DNA of 39,825 nucleotides from Verrucomicrobiota bacterium. GTDB taxonomy: Bacteria > Verrucomicrobiota > Verrucomicrobiia > Verrucomicrobiales > DEV007. The stretch lies in contig JAHDID010000054.1 in the NCBI GenBank assembly GCA_020630975.1, positions 1 through 39,825 on the forward strand, given 5' to 3'. Position 1 is the stretch's first letter, and every line of letters starts with the position of its first letter. Positions 5,150 to 34,006 of the stretch are shown here, piece by piece. The position numbers were made by a program, and so were the translations under genes. The notes below the pieces were generated by a model. That model saw nothing but the letters and a program-made list of their open reading frames with translations. It was not told where the DNA came from and did no database searches.

Positions 5150-6529
5150 TCACATCGTATAATACTGCTCCCAACCCGCACGCGGTGCCGGATCTAGCAA
5201 CGCCTGGGCCGCAGCATTCCCGACAAACTGCTTGGTAGCAGGATCGAACTCCAACGTACCTCCCAAACGCTGCGCGATGATACCCAAACTAAATACCTGA
5301 GTCAGCTCTCCTGATACTGAAAACGGCGAACGCGTTCGTTCCTCACCCTTCACACCGAGCAAAAAGTTTTTGAAGTGATCACTATTTTTACCACTGATCC
5401 TCGGCAAATCCTTGCGGATATCCATGAATTTCTCATTAGGCACCACAGTCAGGCTCGATGAGTGGCTACCACCCCGGAAGGTCAGATCCTTTCCATAGAT
5501 AAGCTTACCTGGACCCTGCACCTCCACACCGAGCTCTGGCTCGACTTCTGGCCTATTGTTAGTGCCATCATACCATGTCACATCGCAGGCAGGCATCCCC
5601 TCCCTCTCTGGGAAGTGAAAGCGAATCGTCGAAGCCTGCGGATAAACTAGATCGTTTGGCTGATCACGCTTCACCGCCTCGATCTTTGTCGGCAGACCCA
5701 GTTTCAAAAATCGGTGAGCGGTATCGAGGATGTGCGGCCCCCAATCACCAAATGCCCCGCTACCATAGTCATACCAGCTACGCCACTCGGCTGGGTGTAG
5801 CTTTTTGCTATAGGGATGCTCTGGCCCTGTGCAGGTCCAGGTATCCCAATCCACACCCTCAGGTAGTGGCTCGCTCGGATAATCGGTGACGGATGCGCCC
5901 CAGCCATGCCAGCGGCGTGGGTTATTCATGTGAGCGGTGATGCGCGTCACATCTTTGATCACACCGGCCTCTGTCCAAGCTTTGAACTGGAAGTAATTGC
6001 CACCTGAATGCCCCTGATTACCCATCTGGGTAGCGAGCCCAGTTTTCTCAGCCATATCCATCAGCCGCTGACACTGGCCAAAGGTATGAGCAAGAGGCTT
6101 CTGCACATAGACTGGCTTACCCAGAGACATAGCCAGCATCGCCTGACAAAAGTGCGCATGATCCGCGGTAGCCACGAGCACGGCATCGATCTCGTCGGCC
6201 ATCTCATCGAACATCTTGCGAAAATCCGTGTAGCACTTGGCATTGGGATGAGCCGCCTGCGCTTCCTGCGTGTGCTCACCCTTCAGATCGACGTCGCAGA
6301 GAGCCACGATATTGCAGATGCCCGAGCCGACCAGCGATCTGATGTTCGACTTCCCTTGATTGCCGATGCCGATAGCGGCCACATTCACTTTCTCACTCGG
6401 AGGCGCTTCACCACTCGCCTGCCCTAGCACATAGGAACTAGGCACGATCGAGAAAAGACCGGCTGCAGCAGAAGATTTGAGAAACCCACGACGGTCACGA
6501 GAGCTAGAGACGTTTAGGTGATCTTTCAT
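5150..6529 (-). CDS. Tat-exported Gfo/Idh/MocA-family oxidoreductase (1)
   Basis: A 459-residue NAD(P)-type oxidoreductase of the large PVC family with Tat signals. RDRRGFLKSS (11-20) is a twin-arginine motif, followed by a hydrophobic stretch. The Rossmann fold follows: the glycine-rich turn GIGNQG (54-59), an acidic strand end (CDVD), and QKP at 143-145 in place of the family's EKP. The C-terminal part is the alpha/beta substrate domain, including a GDWGPH segment that supplies a probable active-site His. The family oxidises or rearranges sugars and inositols, and exported members are thought to retain tightly bound cofactor. The substrate is unknown. It is read in the same direction as the similar gene at 6902-8260 but is separated from it by a nuclease remnant, so co-transcription is uncertain. 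Confidence 0.9.
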   Translation of the reverse strand: MKDHLNVSSSRDRRGFLKSSAAAGLFSIVPSSYVLGQASGEAPPSEKVNVAAIGIGNQGKSNIRSLVGSGICNIVALCDVDLKGEHTQEAQAAHPNAKCYTDFRKMFDEMADEIDAVLVATADHAHFCQAMLAMSLGKPVYVQKPLAHTFGQCQRLMDMAEKTGLATQMGNQGHSGGNYFQFKAWTEAGVIKDVTRITAHMNNPRRWHGWGASVTDYPSEPLPEGVDWDTWTCTGPEHPYSKKLHPAEWRSWYDYGSGAFGDWGPHILDTAHRFLKLGLPTKIEAVKRDQPNDLVYPQASTIRFHFPEREGMPACDVTWYDGTNNRPEVEPELGVEVQGPGKLIYGKDLTFRGGSHSSSLTVVPNEKFMDIRKDLPRISGKNSDHFKNFLLGVKGEERTRSPFSVSGELTQVFSLGIIAQRLGGTLEFDPATKQFVGNAAAQALLDPAPRAGWEQYYTM

Positions 6530-30873: not shown

Positions 30874-30925
30874 TCCTGTGAATCGCTAGCTCGCTAGCTC
30901 ATCATTTTTTTAAATACCAGCAACT

Positions 30926-30942
30926 TGGCACGAGTCATGCTT
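30926..30942 (+). promoter_or_regulatory. Sigma-54 (-24/-12) promoter
   Basis: TTGGCACGAGTCATGCTT has GG at 30927-30928 and GC at 30939-30940 with exactly 10 bp between. It matches TGGCACG-N4-TTGC except for one base (ATGC for TTGC). The predicted start is near 30952, at the foot of a 13-bp hairpin. The AT-rich stretch before it could hold upstream contacts. It reads toward the DUF1549/DUF1553 gene. Sigma-54 promoters need an enhancer-binding activator, and none is encoded in the window. Confidence 0.75.
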
Positions 30943-30950
30943 AGACCCAA

Positions 30951-31147
30951 GGATGTCCACCAGTCAACTGGTGAACATCCAAGGGTTGAAACCAAGGTGG
31001 CCCGGCTGGGTTAACAGCGTGGAACGGAAGGGGTTCCTAGCTGCAGCCGGGTCGCCTATCGACTCCAATGCATGCTAGCAAATGCGCGATTGTGCAATCG
31101 CAAAGACGCCTTTGATCGATCAAAGGATCTCGTAGAGGTTAGCCCCT
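30951..31147 (+). ncRNA. Highly structured leader RNA or small RNA upstream of the DUF1553 gene
   Basis: Stem 1: 30951-30963 with 30968-30980, 13 positions with one mismatch and a TCAA loop. Stem 2: 30999-31008 with 31044-31053 (10 pairs, one G-U), enclosing CAGC/GCTG (31015-31018, 31040-31043) and GGAAC/GTTCC (31021-31025, 31033-31037). Stem 3: GCGATT/AATCGC (31086-31101). Stem 4: the palindrome CCTTTGATCGATCAAAGG (31109-31126). AGAGG at 31134-31138 is a usable ribosome-binding site for the ATG at 31148. With a sigma-54 start near 30952, the transcript is a roughly 196-nt structured 5' leader. I do not recognise a riboswitch family, nor RNase P, SRP RNA, tmRNA or 6S RNA. A separate small RNA processed from the leader is also possible. 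Confidence 0.6.
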
Positions 31148-34006
31148 ATGCTGACAACTCGTCACATCTCCTACCTCTGCTCCTGCCTCCTAGCTAGCCT
31201 AGCGACTCTTGTGGCTGCTCAGGACTTTCCTGCAGAGCAGATCGAATTTTTCGAAAAAGAAATCCGCCCCGTGCTGGTGGAAAGCTGCCTCGACTGCCAT
31301 ACCGGCCAGACTGCTAAATCCGGCCTGCAGCTCGACCACCGCGAGGGCTGGCTACGCGGCACCGACTACGCCAAGATCGTGGATCTGGAGAAACCCGCCG
31401 CTAGCCTGGTGCTGGCCGCCATCCGCCACACCGGCAAAGCGAAAGCCATGCCTAAAACAGGCGATAAGCTGAGCGATCATGAGGTGGCGGCGATAGAGAG
31501 ATGGATCACCATGGGACTGCCCTGGCCCGAGGAGCAGAGCGATAGACCTGCGCGAGTCGACCGCAGGCAGCACTGGTCATTCCAGCCTGTGGAGAGCCCC
31601 GAGCTACCTGAGGGAGCCGGCCACCCGATCGACTATTTCATCCGCAAAAAGCTAGCTGAGGCAGGCATAGAGCCTGCGCCACAGGCCAGCCCTGCTACAG
31701 TCTATCGTCGGCTCAGCTACGATCTGATCGGCCTACCACCGACCTACGAGGAGATCCAGGCCTATGCGGCTGCGGAGACTCCCGACCTAGCTGCCCAGAT
31801 CGACCAGCTCATGGCCAGCCCCCACTACGGCGAGCGCTGGGCACGCCACTGGATGGATGTCGCCCGCTACTCCGATACCAAAGGCTACGAGGCAGCAAAC
31901 CGAGCCCGCGACTTTCTGCACAGCCACACCTACCGCGATTGGTTGATCCGTGCTTTCAATGAGGACATGCCCTTCGACCAGTTTCTCATCTATCAGCTCG
32001 CCGCCGAGCAGGTGGTCGAGGACTGGGATGGGCCAGATCGCCATCATCTGGCAGCTATGGGCTTTCTCTCGCTGAGCAAAAACGGCGCTGCCGAGCTGGT
32101 GCTGGATGACCGGGTGGATACCACCTTTCGCGGCATGATGGGGCTCACCGTATCCTGCGCGCGCTGCCACGATCACAAAAGCGACCCGATCTCGACGCGA
32201 GAGTACTACAGCCTCTACAAAATCTTTCGCAATTCCAACGACCTGCAGAAGCACCCCATAGCCGAAGCCCCCGACACACCGGAGTATAAAAAGTACCAGG
32301 CGGAGCTAACTGCTCTGGAGAAAAAACGCTCAGACTACCTAGAGCCATTTCTGAATCGAGTGCGCAAAGAAAATCCCAAGATCCGAAAAGACGATATCCC
32401 AGCCCTGATCCGCAAACTATCCGCCGACGAGCGCAAGCGGCAGCGAAATATGCTGGATGATGTGAACCGCTTCATCGCCAAGGCGAAGATGGAGGCCGAC
32501 CATGCCTTGTTTTTCAAAGAGCGCACCAAGCACATGCCCCAGCACGTCTACATCCGCGGCAATCCTGGGCGTAGAGGCGAGCTAGTACCTGCCCAGTTTC
32601 TCCAGCTAGCGGCAGCCGAGGCACCTGCAGAGTTCTCAGAGGGCAGCAGTCGCCTGCAGCTAGCGCACTCGATCGCCTCCGCCGAAAATCCGCTCACCGC
32701 CCGCGTCATCGTAAACCGAGTATGGATGTGGCACTTTGGCGAGGGGCTAGTCCGCACCGTCAGCGACTTTGGCCTGACTGGTGAGCCGCCCAGCCACCCT
32801 GAGCTGCTCGATTGGCTGGCCGACTGGTTTATCAAAGAAGGCTGGTCGATCCAGGCGCTGCACCGGCTCATCCTCACCTCACAGACCTGGCAGCAGAGCT
32901 CCGATCATCCCCAGGCCGAGGCAGCTATGCTCATCGATCCCGAGAATCGCCTGCTCTGGCGTGCTTTCAAAAAGCGTCTCGACTTCGAGCAGATGCGCGA
33001 TGCCATGCTCACCGTATCTGGCGAGCTAGATCGTAGCCAATATGGCCGCTCCGTGAAGATGCTCGAGGCGCCCTACAGCCAGCGCCGCACCGTGTATGCC
33101 TACATCGACCGGCAGAATCTGCCTGCCGTGTTTCGCCACTTCGATTTTTCCAATCCTGCCGAGACCACCGGTAAGCGCCCCGATACCACTATCCCCATGC
33201 AGGCGCTGTTCACCATGAATAGCGACTTCGCCATGGACCGCGCCAGCGCCCTAGTCGAGCGAGTCGCAGAGAGCGAGGACCGAGTCGGCCAGCTGCATCG
33301 CCTAGCGCTGGGGCGCGAACCCAGCGAGCAGGACCGCATACTCGCCGATAGCTTCATAGGTAGCTACGATAGCGATGAGCACCCCGACGATACGCAAAAC
33401 CTATCCGGCTGGGCCTATGGCTGGGGCCATGTCGATACCAGTGCAGAGCCAGCACAGGTCACCTTCCGCCCCTTTCGCCACTGGGAGCCCAAGGCCCGCG
33501 AGTACCGCATCAAAAAGGAATACCCGATCAAAGACGGCCCCCTCTCCTACCTACGGATCAATCCCAACATCCTCCACCCCGGCCACACGGCTAAGCAGTG
33601 CGTCATCATCCGCTGGCAAGCACCGCGCGACATGACCATCCGCATCTCCAGTCTGCTCGAGCGCCCAGCCATCGGTAAAGGCTCTGGCGTGCTCGGTCGC
33701 ATCGTATCTGATCGCCAGGGGCTGCTACTCGATCGCCATCTACTGCCCGAGGCAGCGTCCATCGAGATAGGGCTCGATACCCTAGAAGTCGACCGCGGTG
33801 AGCAGATCCATTTCATCCTAGATCCCAGAGAAAACAACTGCGCCCACGATAACTGCAAGTGGGCCCCCATCATCGTAAACGCCCACAACGCCGCCGAGCG
33901 CTGGACCATGTCGCTAGATATCGACAAACCTCAAAAGCCGATCGGTAGCTGGCAGGCCTATGCGCAGGCACTACTGAATACGAATCGGTTTTTGTTTGTG
34001 GAGTGA
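31148..34006 (+). CDS. Planctomycete-type cytochrome c / DUF1549 / DUF1553 exported protein
   Basis: A 952-residue exported protein. The signal peptide ends near LVAA (about 24). The N-terminal cytochrome-c-like domain carries CLDCH (47-51) and an expected distal region with AMPKTGDKLS. The DUF1549 domain (about 160-370) includes IDYFIRKKLAEAG, YGERWARHWMDVARY and a second haem-type motif CARCH near 337. The DUF1553 domain follows from about 500 (NPLTARVIVNRVWMWHFGEG and HPELLDWLADWF). Such proteins are abundant in PVC bacteria. They are presumed periplasmic haem proteins in breakdown of complex polysaccharides, but none of the features proves a reaction. The DUF1501 gene usually found beside it is displaced to 36138 by a repeat and one opposite-strand gene. 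Expression is probably from the sigma-54-type promoter via the structured leader. Confidence 0.93.
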   Translation: MLTTRHISYLCSCLLASLATLVAAQDFPAEQIEFFEKEIRPVLVESCLDCHTGQTAKSGLQLDHREGWLRGTDYAKIVDLEKPAASLVLAAIRHTGKAKAMPKTGDKLSDHEVAAIERWITMGLPWPEEQSDRPARVDRRQHWSFQPVESPELPEGAGHPIDYFIRKKLAEAGIEPAPQASPATVYRRLSYDLIGLPPTYEEIQAYAAAETPDLAAQIDQLMASPHYGERWARHWMDVARYSDTKGYEAANRARDFLHSHTYRDWLIRAFNEDMPFDQFLIYQLAAEQVVEDWDGPDRHHLAAMGFLSLSKNGAAELVLDDRVDTTFRGMMGLTVSCARCHDHKSDPISTREYYSLYKIFRNSNDLQKHPIAEAPDTPEYKKYQAELTALEKKRSDYLEPFLNRVRKENPKIRKDDIPALIRKLSADERKRQRNMLDDVNRFIAKAKMEADHALFFKERTKHMPQHVYIRGNPGRRGELVPAQFLQLAAAEAPAEFSEGSSRLQLAHSIASAENPLTARVIVNRVWMWHFGEGLVRTVSDFGLTGEPPSHPELLDWLADWFIKEGWSIQALHRLILTSQTWQQSSDHPQAEAAMLIDPENRLLWRAFKKRLDFEQMRDAMLTVSGELDRSQYGRSVKMLEAPYSQRRTVYAYIDRQNLPAVFRHFDFSNPAETTGKRPDTTIPMQALFTMNSDFAMDRASALVERVAESEDRVGQLHRLALGREPSEQDRILADSFIGSYDSDEHPDDTQNLSGWAYGWGHVDTSAEPAQVTFRPFRHWEPKAREYRIKKEYPIKDGPLSYLRINPNILHPGHTAKQCVIIRWQAPRDMTIRISSLLERPAIGKGSGVLGRIVSDRQGLLLDRHLLPEAASIEIGLDTLEVDRGEQIHFILDPRENNCAHDNCKWAPIIVNAHNAAERWTMSLDIDKPQKPIGSWQAYAQALLNTNRFLFVE

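Follow-up and report, generated by a model that had tools for sequence, protein, structure and literature searches.

A putative sigma-54-dependent small RNA gene upstream of a DUF1549/DUF1553 gene in a Verrucomicrobiota genome, and the RNA family to which it appears to belong

RESULTS

Features of the locus

The window analyzed here, a stretch of 39,825 nucleotides, carries at positions 31148 to 34006 of the plus strand a gene for a PSCyt1/DUF1549 (PSCyt2)/DUF1553 (PSD1) protein of 952 amino acids. Upstream of this gene and on the same strand, a pattern match identifies a sigma-54 (-24/-12) promoter element, TGGCACGAGTCATGC, at 30926 to 30940. Its GG lies at 30927 to 30928 and its GC at 30939 to 30940, and the spacing is exactly 10 bases, as the initial annotation of this DNA had claimed. 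When both strands of the window are scanned, TGGCAC followed by TGC at the spacing of TGGCACGAGTCATGC occurs a single time. The looser pattern TGGC[AC]-N7-[TAC]GC, which was used for the family-wide promoter counts described below, is present 13 times on the plus strand and 6 times on the minus strand of the 39.8 kb. From the promoter geometry, we infer that the transcript would start at about 30951 to 30953.

The putative small RNA gene, which we assign to class I (see below), extends from 30951 to 31065 on the plus strand. Its predicted length of about 115 nt compares with roughly 115 to 150 nt predicted for its relatives. The first part is a 5' hairpin at 30951 to 30980, formed by helices 30951-30956/30975-30980 and 30958-30963/30968-30973; in relatives the structure is kept and the sequence varies. 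A hairpin of 13 positions had been proposed here, and it is present, but as 6 + 6 pairs with one mismatch. Next comes the linker GGGTTGAAACC at 30983 to 30993, the core of which, GGGTTGAA, is identical in all 24 aligned class I RNAs, and then a long compound stem with an apical hairpin at 30995 to 31057. The helices of this stem are 30995-31008/31044-31057 (14 pairs), 31015-31018/31040-31043 (4 pairs), and 31021-31025/31033-31037 (5 pairs). Of the 10, 4, and 5 pairs originally described for it, the last two figures were borne out, whereas the first helix is longer. In the window, the apical hairpin (31021 to 31037; GGAAC-GGAAGGG-GTTCC) has diverged from the common AGGUUUUACGGGGGUUUUUCCU. An additional outer helix of 7 pairs is predicted between 30983-30989 and 31059-31065.

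As RNA, the interval from 30950 to 31160 folds at -93.6 kcal/mol, compared with a mean of -65.8 for 200 dinucleotide shuffles (z = -5.53), none of which reached a value as low. Among 179 tiles of 222 nt across the window, one folds at least as well as 30926 to 31147. The predicted RNA is thus unusually stable. Two further stems follow. A small hairpin of 6 bp, GCGATTGTGCAATCGC, was found as described, at 31086 to 31101, and the 18-bp palindrome is present at 31109 to 31126, but 21 nt and not 22 nt before the ATG at 31148. Both had been counted as parts of a leader; they lie beyond the conserved RNA, and an alignment of 16 sequences has no conserved columns 3' of the long stem. No clear U-run follows the stem of the window copy, and for this reason its 3' end and its termination are uncertain. 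The usual U-rich apical loop is also missing from this copy.

A conserved module in related genomes

A search at the DNA level with the window stretch gave, besides itself, only two short matches of 22 to 26 nt in 74 genomes of the family, and we therefore used orthologue-based and model-based searches. With relatives of the DUF1553 protein, 80 loci were fetched; all of them were searched with the models, and the best 26 upstream regions were read. In these 26 regions, a module recurs: TTGGCAC-N6-TGC comes first, then a variable hairpin and AAGGGUUGAAACC, and finally a long stem that bears AGGUUUUACGGGGGUUUUUCCU at its apex. When the fetched loci were scanned for the motif, 15 proved to contain the module, not counting the window and the copies of it (L001, L002, and L008). 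One further locus, L077, has one mismatch in the linker and the promoter at a different distance, and it was set aside as chance. We use the term class I for RNAs that have a sigma-54 promoter and consist of a hairpin at the 5' end, the linker GGGUUGAA, and a long stem in which compensatory changes occur.

Covariance model R1 found matches in 46 of the 74 family genomes at E values up to 0.1. The list holds 56 matches, of which 51 were used for the promoter count. Left out were two weak matches (G025:C120 and G073:C1) and three on the opposite strand (G003, G006, and G023); such matches, in which a model hits the other strand of a known RNA, mirror its long stem. The score of the window under R1 is given by construction, as the window was in the training set, and a model built without it, R3, served as the independent test. 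R3 matches the window at 30948 to 31059 with 32 bits and an E value of 6.3e-7, and the runner-up in the window has an E value of 1.6. Among held-out loci, R3 found 8, with 69 to 94 bits. Among the class I copies found in its genus, that of the window has the lowest score, and by sequence comparison it is a true, diverged member of class I. The carriers of class I among the fetched loci belong to Verrucomicrobiales; for the family genomes, this placement is probable, as they are of the same order and 14 loci are identical in sequence.

The promoter was excluded from R1, yet the sigma-54 pattern lies upstream of all 36 R1 matches of at least 50 bits, which come from 35 of the 74 family genomes. 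It starts 17 to 28 positions before the model start in 34 of the 36 and at -57 and -60 in the other two. In control tiles of equal length, the pattern was present in 158 of 11,200 (1.4%), and it precedes 3 of the 15 R1 matches below 50 bits that were checked. Fifteen of the 36 strong matches are training sequences, chosen with the promoter in view and through the DUF1553 protein; the identity of 14 training loci with matches in the family genomes was checked. The 21 nontraining RNAs were found by R1, and the pattern is present in 21 of 21.

Compensatory changes and alternative pairing

In alignment A1 (16 sequences), one or more sequences have changed on both sides with pairing kept in 18 of the 35 predicted pairs. 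None of 500 shuffles reached 18, and when the partner was shifted by one to three columns, 3 to 7 such pairs were left. When the 18-pair long stem was followed through 24 class I RNAs, 12 pairs were double changed, in 44 cells of the alignment; again 0 of 500 shuffles reached either count, and the slid versions gave 3 to 8 pairs. Over the same 24 RNAs, the linker core GGGUUGAA is unchanged. In the larger alignments A4 to A6, MAFFT placed the variable 5' hairpins incorrectly, and therefore we claim covariation of the 5' hairpin from A1 only. The covariance analysis of homologous upstream regions that had been proposed as a check thus yielded compensatory changes, and the comparison argues that the RNA structure is under selection. 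These results also bear on whether the locus encodes no functional RNA and is nothing more than a DNA feature or a series of terminators and palindromes that arose by chance. The terminal stem does resemble a terminator in part of the family. This reading is nevertheless very improbable, as it is at odds with the compensatory changes, the unchanging linker and conserved loop, and the nearly fixed distance of the promoter.

The linker can also pair elsewhere. In 35 of the 36 RNAs, a hexamer that follows at a short distance, within the 5' strand of the long stem, could serve as a partner for its GGGUUG. Folds of truncated RNAs have all six linker bases paired downstream in 31 of the 36 and incompletely paired in 5. 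In full-length folds the linker has its partners elsewhere, and the long stem is formed in the 16 folds examined. The alternative pairing holds in all 24 aligned RNAs but is without support from covariation, because the changes are on one side only. We consider it a possible, predicted pairing.

Sigma-54 and RNA-binding partners encoded in the genome

The genome to which the window belongs encodes RpoN with all three Pfam domains (activator interacting, core binding, and DNA binding), in answer to the question whether rpoN is present at all. It also has 10 matches to PF00158 for sigma-54 activators, six of them strong. Over the family, RpoN was found in 63 of 74 genomes, and the class I carriers without it (G009, G016, and G022) are genomes that are 63 to 79% complete, which makes a comparison of RpoN presence with RNA presence uninformative. 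No match to Hfq (PF17209) was found in the window's own genome, which is 95.8% complete, and the control search was positive in 5 of 14 genomes. The same holds for 6S RNA: RF00013 has no match in this genome, with a control search positive in 5 of 14 genomes, and a 6S-like role is without support.

Class II RNAs

Class II RNAs resemble class I in the long stem, the apical U-tract, and the G-run, but most of them lack the sigma-54 element and the linker. They were recognized as weaker R1 matches and with a second model, R2, and often end in a U-run. R2 matches occur in 57 of the 74 family genomes (E values up to 0.01), and many of these are class I RNAs recognized through the shared hairpin. 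The window's own genome has one class II copy, at C77:33041-33146 (L182), which scores 34.8 bits with R3. Immediately upstream of it is the sigma-70-like TTGCCA-N16-TATGAT, and its end is U rich. The copy is flanked by a divergent gene of the UDPGP family (UDP-sugar pyrophosphorylase-like) and a convergent AlgX-like gene. A GGGGG loop is present in its 5' hairpin too.

Further copies were found with R1 and R2 in other families of the same order: G147 has 10 matches, and at least three genomes (G141, G161, and G167) have close tandem copies. The copies in these four genomes (L183 to L196) are partly with and partly without the sigma-54 pattern. Among 27 copies inspected, a selection from all matches, the sigma-54 pattern was present in 9, including all three of the G161 cluster, and the sigma-70-like pattern in 1, that of the window's own genome. 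The 20 genomes listed for genus g19 of the same order gave no matches. R2 matches in other classes and beyond (E values of 3e-5 to 9e-4; 53 to 71 nt, with one of 130 nt) were treated as unproven. Since the shared hairpin occurs both with and without the sigma-54 element, class I and class II look like paralogues, part of them under sigma-54 and part not. Judged by sequence, the window RNA is part of a larger RNA family within the same order.

Genomic context and the DUF1553 gene

The initial annotation took the structured region for the leader of the DUF1553 gene and mentioned a separable small RNA as an aside. If it were a cis-acting leader, similar to a riboswitch or attenuator, the pairing of linker and stem would be the antiterminator and the long stem the terminator, and it would fit that all 24 aligned sequences allow two pairings that exclude each other and that the window copy has no U-run. 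When the DNA downstream of the 36 RNAs was examined, the next recognized gene was a DUF1553 gene in 14 loci and a convergent gene for an MFS-type transporter in 14, and neither was found in 8. The DUF1553 gene of the window and of the 13 other loci in the first group has the same orientation as the RNA, and transcription could run on into it. Because the DUF1553 protein served to collect the training loci, this count is biased, and the 21 nontraining RNAs were counted separately. The DUF1553 gene comes next in only 3 of these, the convergent transporter gene in 10, and neither in 8. A fixed co-directional position before one gene family is thus not what we found, either in the 21 or when the training loci are included. 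Where the downstream gene is convergent, there is nothing to lead, and the class II RNA of the window's own genome likewise has a divergent gene on one side and a convergent gene on the other. In four of the 15 module loci (L013, L014, L015, and L017), about 1.7 kb separate the module from the DUF1553 gene downstream, with a convergent gene between them whose protein is similar to MFS-type transporters. With a DUF1553 gene next in so few nontraining loci and a convergent gene in 10, a free-standing RNA gene is the best reading. A leader of the DUF1549/DUF1553 gene is improbable, and comparison with relatives favors what had been the aside.

The DUF1553 gene may instead have promoter elements of its own. 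Near the start codon, 16 of 27 DUF1553 upstream regions have an inverted repeat, CGCAAWNACGNNNATTGC, within 2 mismatches, compared with 1 of 1,080 shuffles. The sequences counted are those from which the pattern was derived, and the count therefore shows conservation and is not an independent discovery. The window version, in the region from 31099 to 31126, has 3 mismatches, a level reached by 17 of 1,080 shuffles, and it overlaps the palindrome at 31109 to 31126; it is weak and, taken alone, unconvincing. Five of the 16 regions with CGCAAWNACGNNNATTGC have no adjacent RNA. In one of them, L013, the RNA is 1.7 kb off, behind another gene, and in the loci examined for the others (L011, L018, L024, and L029; for L024 only about 670 nt upstream), the model found none. 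Orthologues thus keep a promoter-like repeat nearer the ATG even where no RNA was found alongside, a further argument against a leader. The palindrome looks, from these comparisons, like part of the promoter/operator region of the DUF1553 gene itself. In several of the DUF1549/DUF1553 loci with CGCAAWNACGNNNATTGC (window 31099 to 31126 and L011 to L036), the repeat is followed by CGTAG and GAANNT, and together these are perhaps an operator plus promoter for a putative regulator. In L011, a different long hairpin and then a T-run precede the DUF1553 orthologue (5550 to 5980), where class I has no model match; this hairpin is possibly a replaced RNA.

On the other side of the RNA, a divergent gene for a GNAT acetyltransferase lies upstream in 27 of the 36 loci, usually followed by a gene for a PLP-binding protein (Ala_racemase_N). 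This suggests another alternative, in which the RNA would be an antisense regulator of the GNAT gene, whose 5' end would overlap it. The GNAT match ends 38 to 124 nt from the model start in 26 of the 27 loci, so the GNAT mRNA may begin inside the RNA gene. However, the GNAT gene was not found in 9 of the 36 loci, the window included, and the part that would overlap, the 5' hairpin, is the least conserved. We regard an antisense role as quite improbable. Among the individual loci, the opposite-strand GNAT match ends about 45 to 125 nt from the model start in L013 to L017, L122, and L206 to L209, and there the GNAT transcript may overlap the small RNA gene.

DISCUSSION

We consider it likely that 30926 to 31065 is a free-standing, activator-dependent small RNA gene, transcribed with sigma-54 into an RNA of about 115 nt that belongs to a larger family. 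Comparison with relatives shows the promoter, the structure, the family, and the independence from the DUF1553 gene, and the window RNA would accordingly be a gene and not a leader, which corrects the reading of this locus. That the window copy is transcribed and ends near the stem is what we would infer. Class I RNAs are common to many Verrucomicrobia genomes of the same family.

Rfam 15 has no family for the window at gathering thresholds. In relative loci (10, 13, and 20 in separate sets), Rfam 15 found nothing but 8 tRNAs, and with permissive settings, 5 short loci yielded a single microRNA match that scored far under the threshold. A full-length weak match of Rfam P11 (RF00625) to 30914 to 31056 was taken as chance, because it has 17.8 bits, compared with a gathering score of 70, and an E value of 0.11 in a search of 501 bases. 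In the open-licence literature, as covered by titles, starts of abstracts, and top-ranked matches, we found no description of a small RNA of Verrucomicrobiota, and the string "verruco" is absent from the main texts of two large surveys of structured RNAs. As far as these searches reach, the RNAs appear to form a new family within the sigma-54-dependent small RNAs; the GG-N10-GC element lies at a nearly fixed distance, and RpoN and enhancer-binding proteins are encoded.

Several known systems are similar in part. The Qrr1 to Qrr5 RNAs of Vibrio are likewise sigma-54-dependent siblings, several per genome. Qrr RNAs work with Hfq, whereas here Hfq was not detected, the phylum is another one, and Rfam gives no match. 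CrcZ and CrcY of Pseudomonas are also sigma-54-dependent, free-standing RNAs; they titrate Hfq/Crc via A-rich repeats, and the window's own genome has no match to Hfq. A small RNA of the Hfq-dependent Qrr or CrcZ type is thus not what the PF17209 search points to, and the small RNA described here would not rely on Hfq.

The nearest system in logic is GlmY/GlmZ of Enterobacteriaceae, described as homologous small RNAs in one genome, one with a sigma-54 promoter under a response regulator and the other constitutive (PMC7073468). In that account, one RNA is a decoy that lacks the base-pairing site of its homologue (PMC7073468). The family described here differs in that there is no Rfam match, no gathering hit to the GlmY/GlmZ models, and no link to glmS shown, and in that the sigma-54 class bears an extra invariant linker.

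We propose the following mechanism. RNA polymerase with sigma-54, at a promoter opened by one of the enhancer-binding proteins encoded in the genome, would make an RNA of about 115 nt that begins with a 5' hairpin, continues with the linker GGGUUGAA, and closes with a long terminal stem. The terminal stem, with the U-run present in some relatives, could end transcription. The RNA would most likely act in trans, with the linker and/or the G-rich apical loop in contact with a target RNA or protein, and the shared hairpin may give stability or bind a common partner. During synthesis, the 5' strand of the long stem could hold the linker by base pairing and would free it once the stem closes, so that the linker would be exposed only on the finished RNA. 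Exact complements of 13 nt to the linker are not enriched outside the RNA in 33 genomes of the genus (4 sites, compared with 4 for the reversed control). The four sites are not copies of the RNA, and two of them share one sequence in two genomes. A long, perfect, conserved target is therefore unlikely, and the contact may be made through a shorter seed or with a protein.

A more far-reaching possibility is a regulator-and-decoy circuit. Here two homologous RNAs found throughout the order, one controlled by sigma-54 and the other constitutive, would work without Hfq and resemble GlmY/GlmZ, though with an independent origin. The linker of the sigma-54 member, masked during synthesis by the 5' strand of the terminal stem and freed on closure, would make only the finished RNA active. 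We consider this circuit as a whole rather unlikely. The family itself is concrete and can be searched for. It offers paralogues, invariant sites that are candidates for contact, and a predicted switch made up of sigma-54 and an activator, and the host genome has six strong sigma-54 activators. No RapZ-type domain was found among the 9 proteins in the 12.5 kb around rpoN. In the window's own genome, a DUF1549/DUF1553-DUF1501 gene pair directly adjoins rpoN (C25:374-6493; L247).
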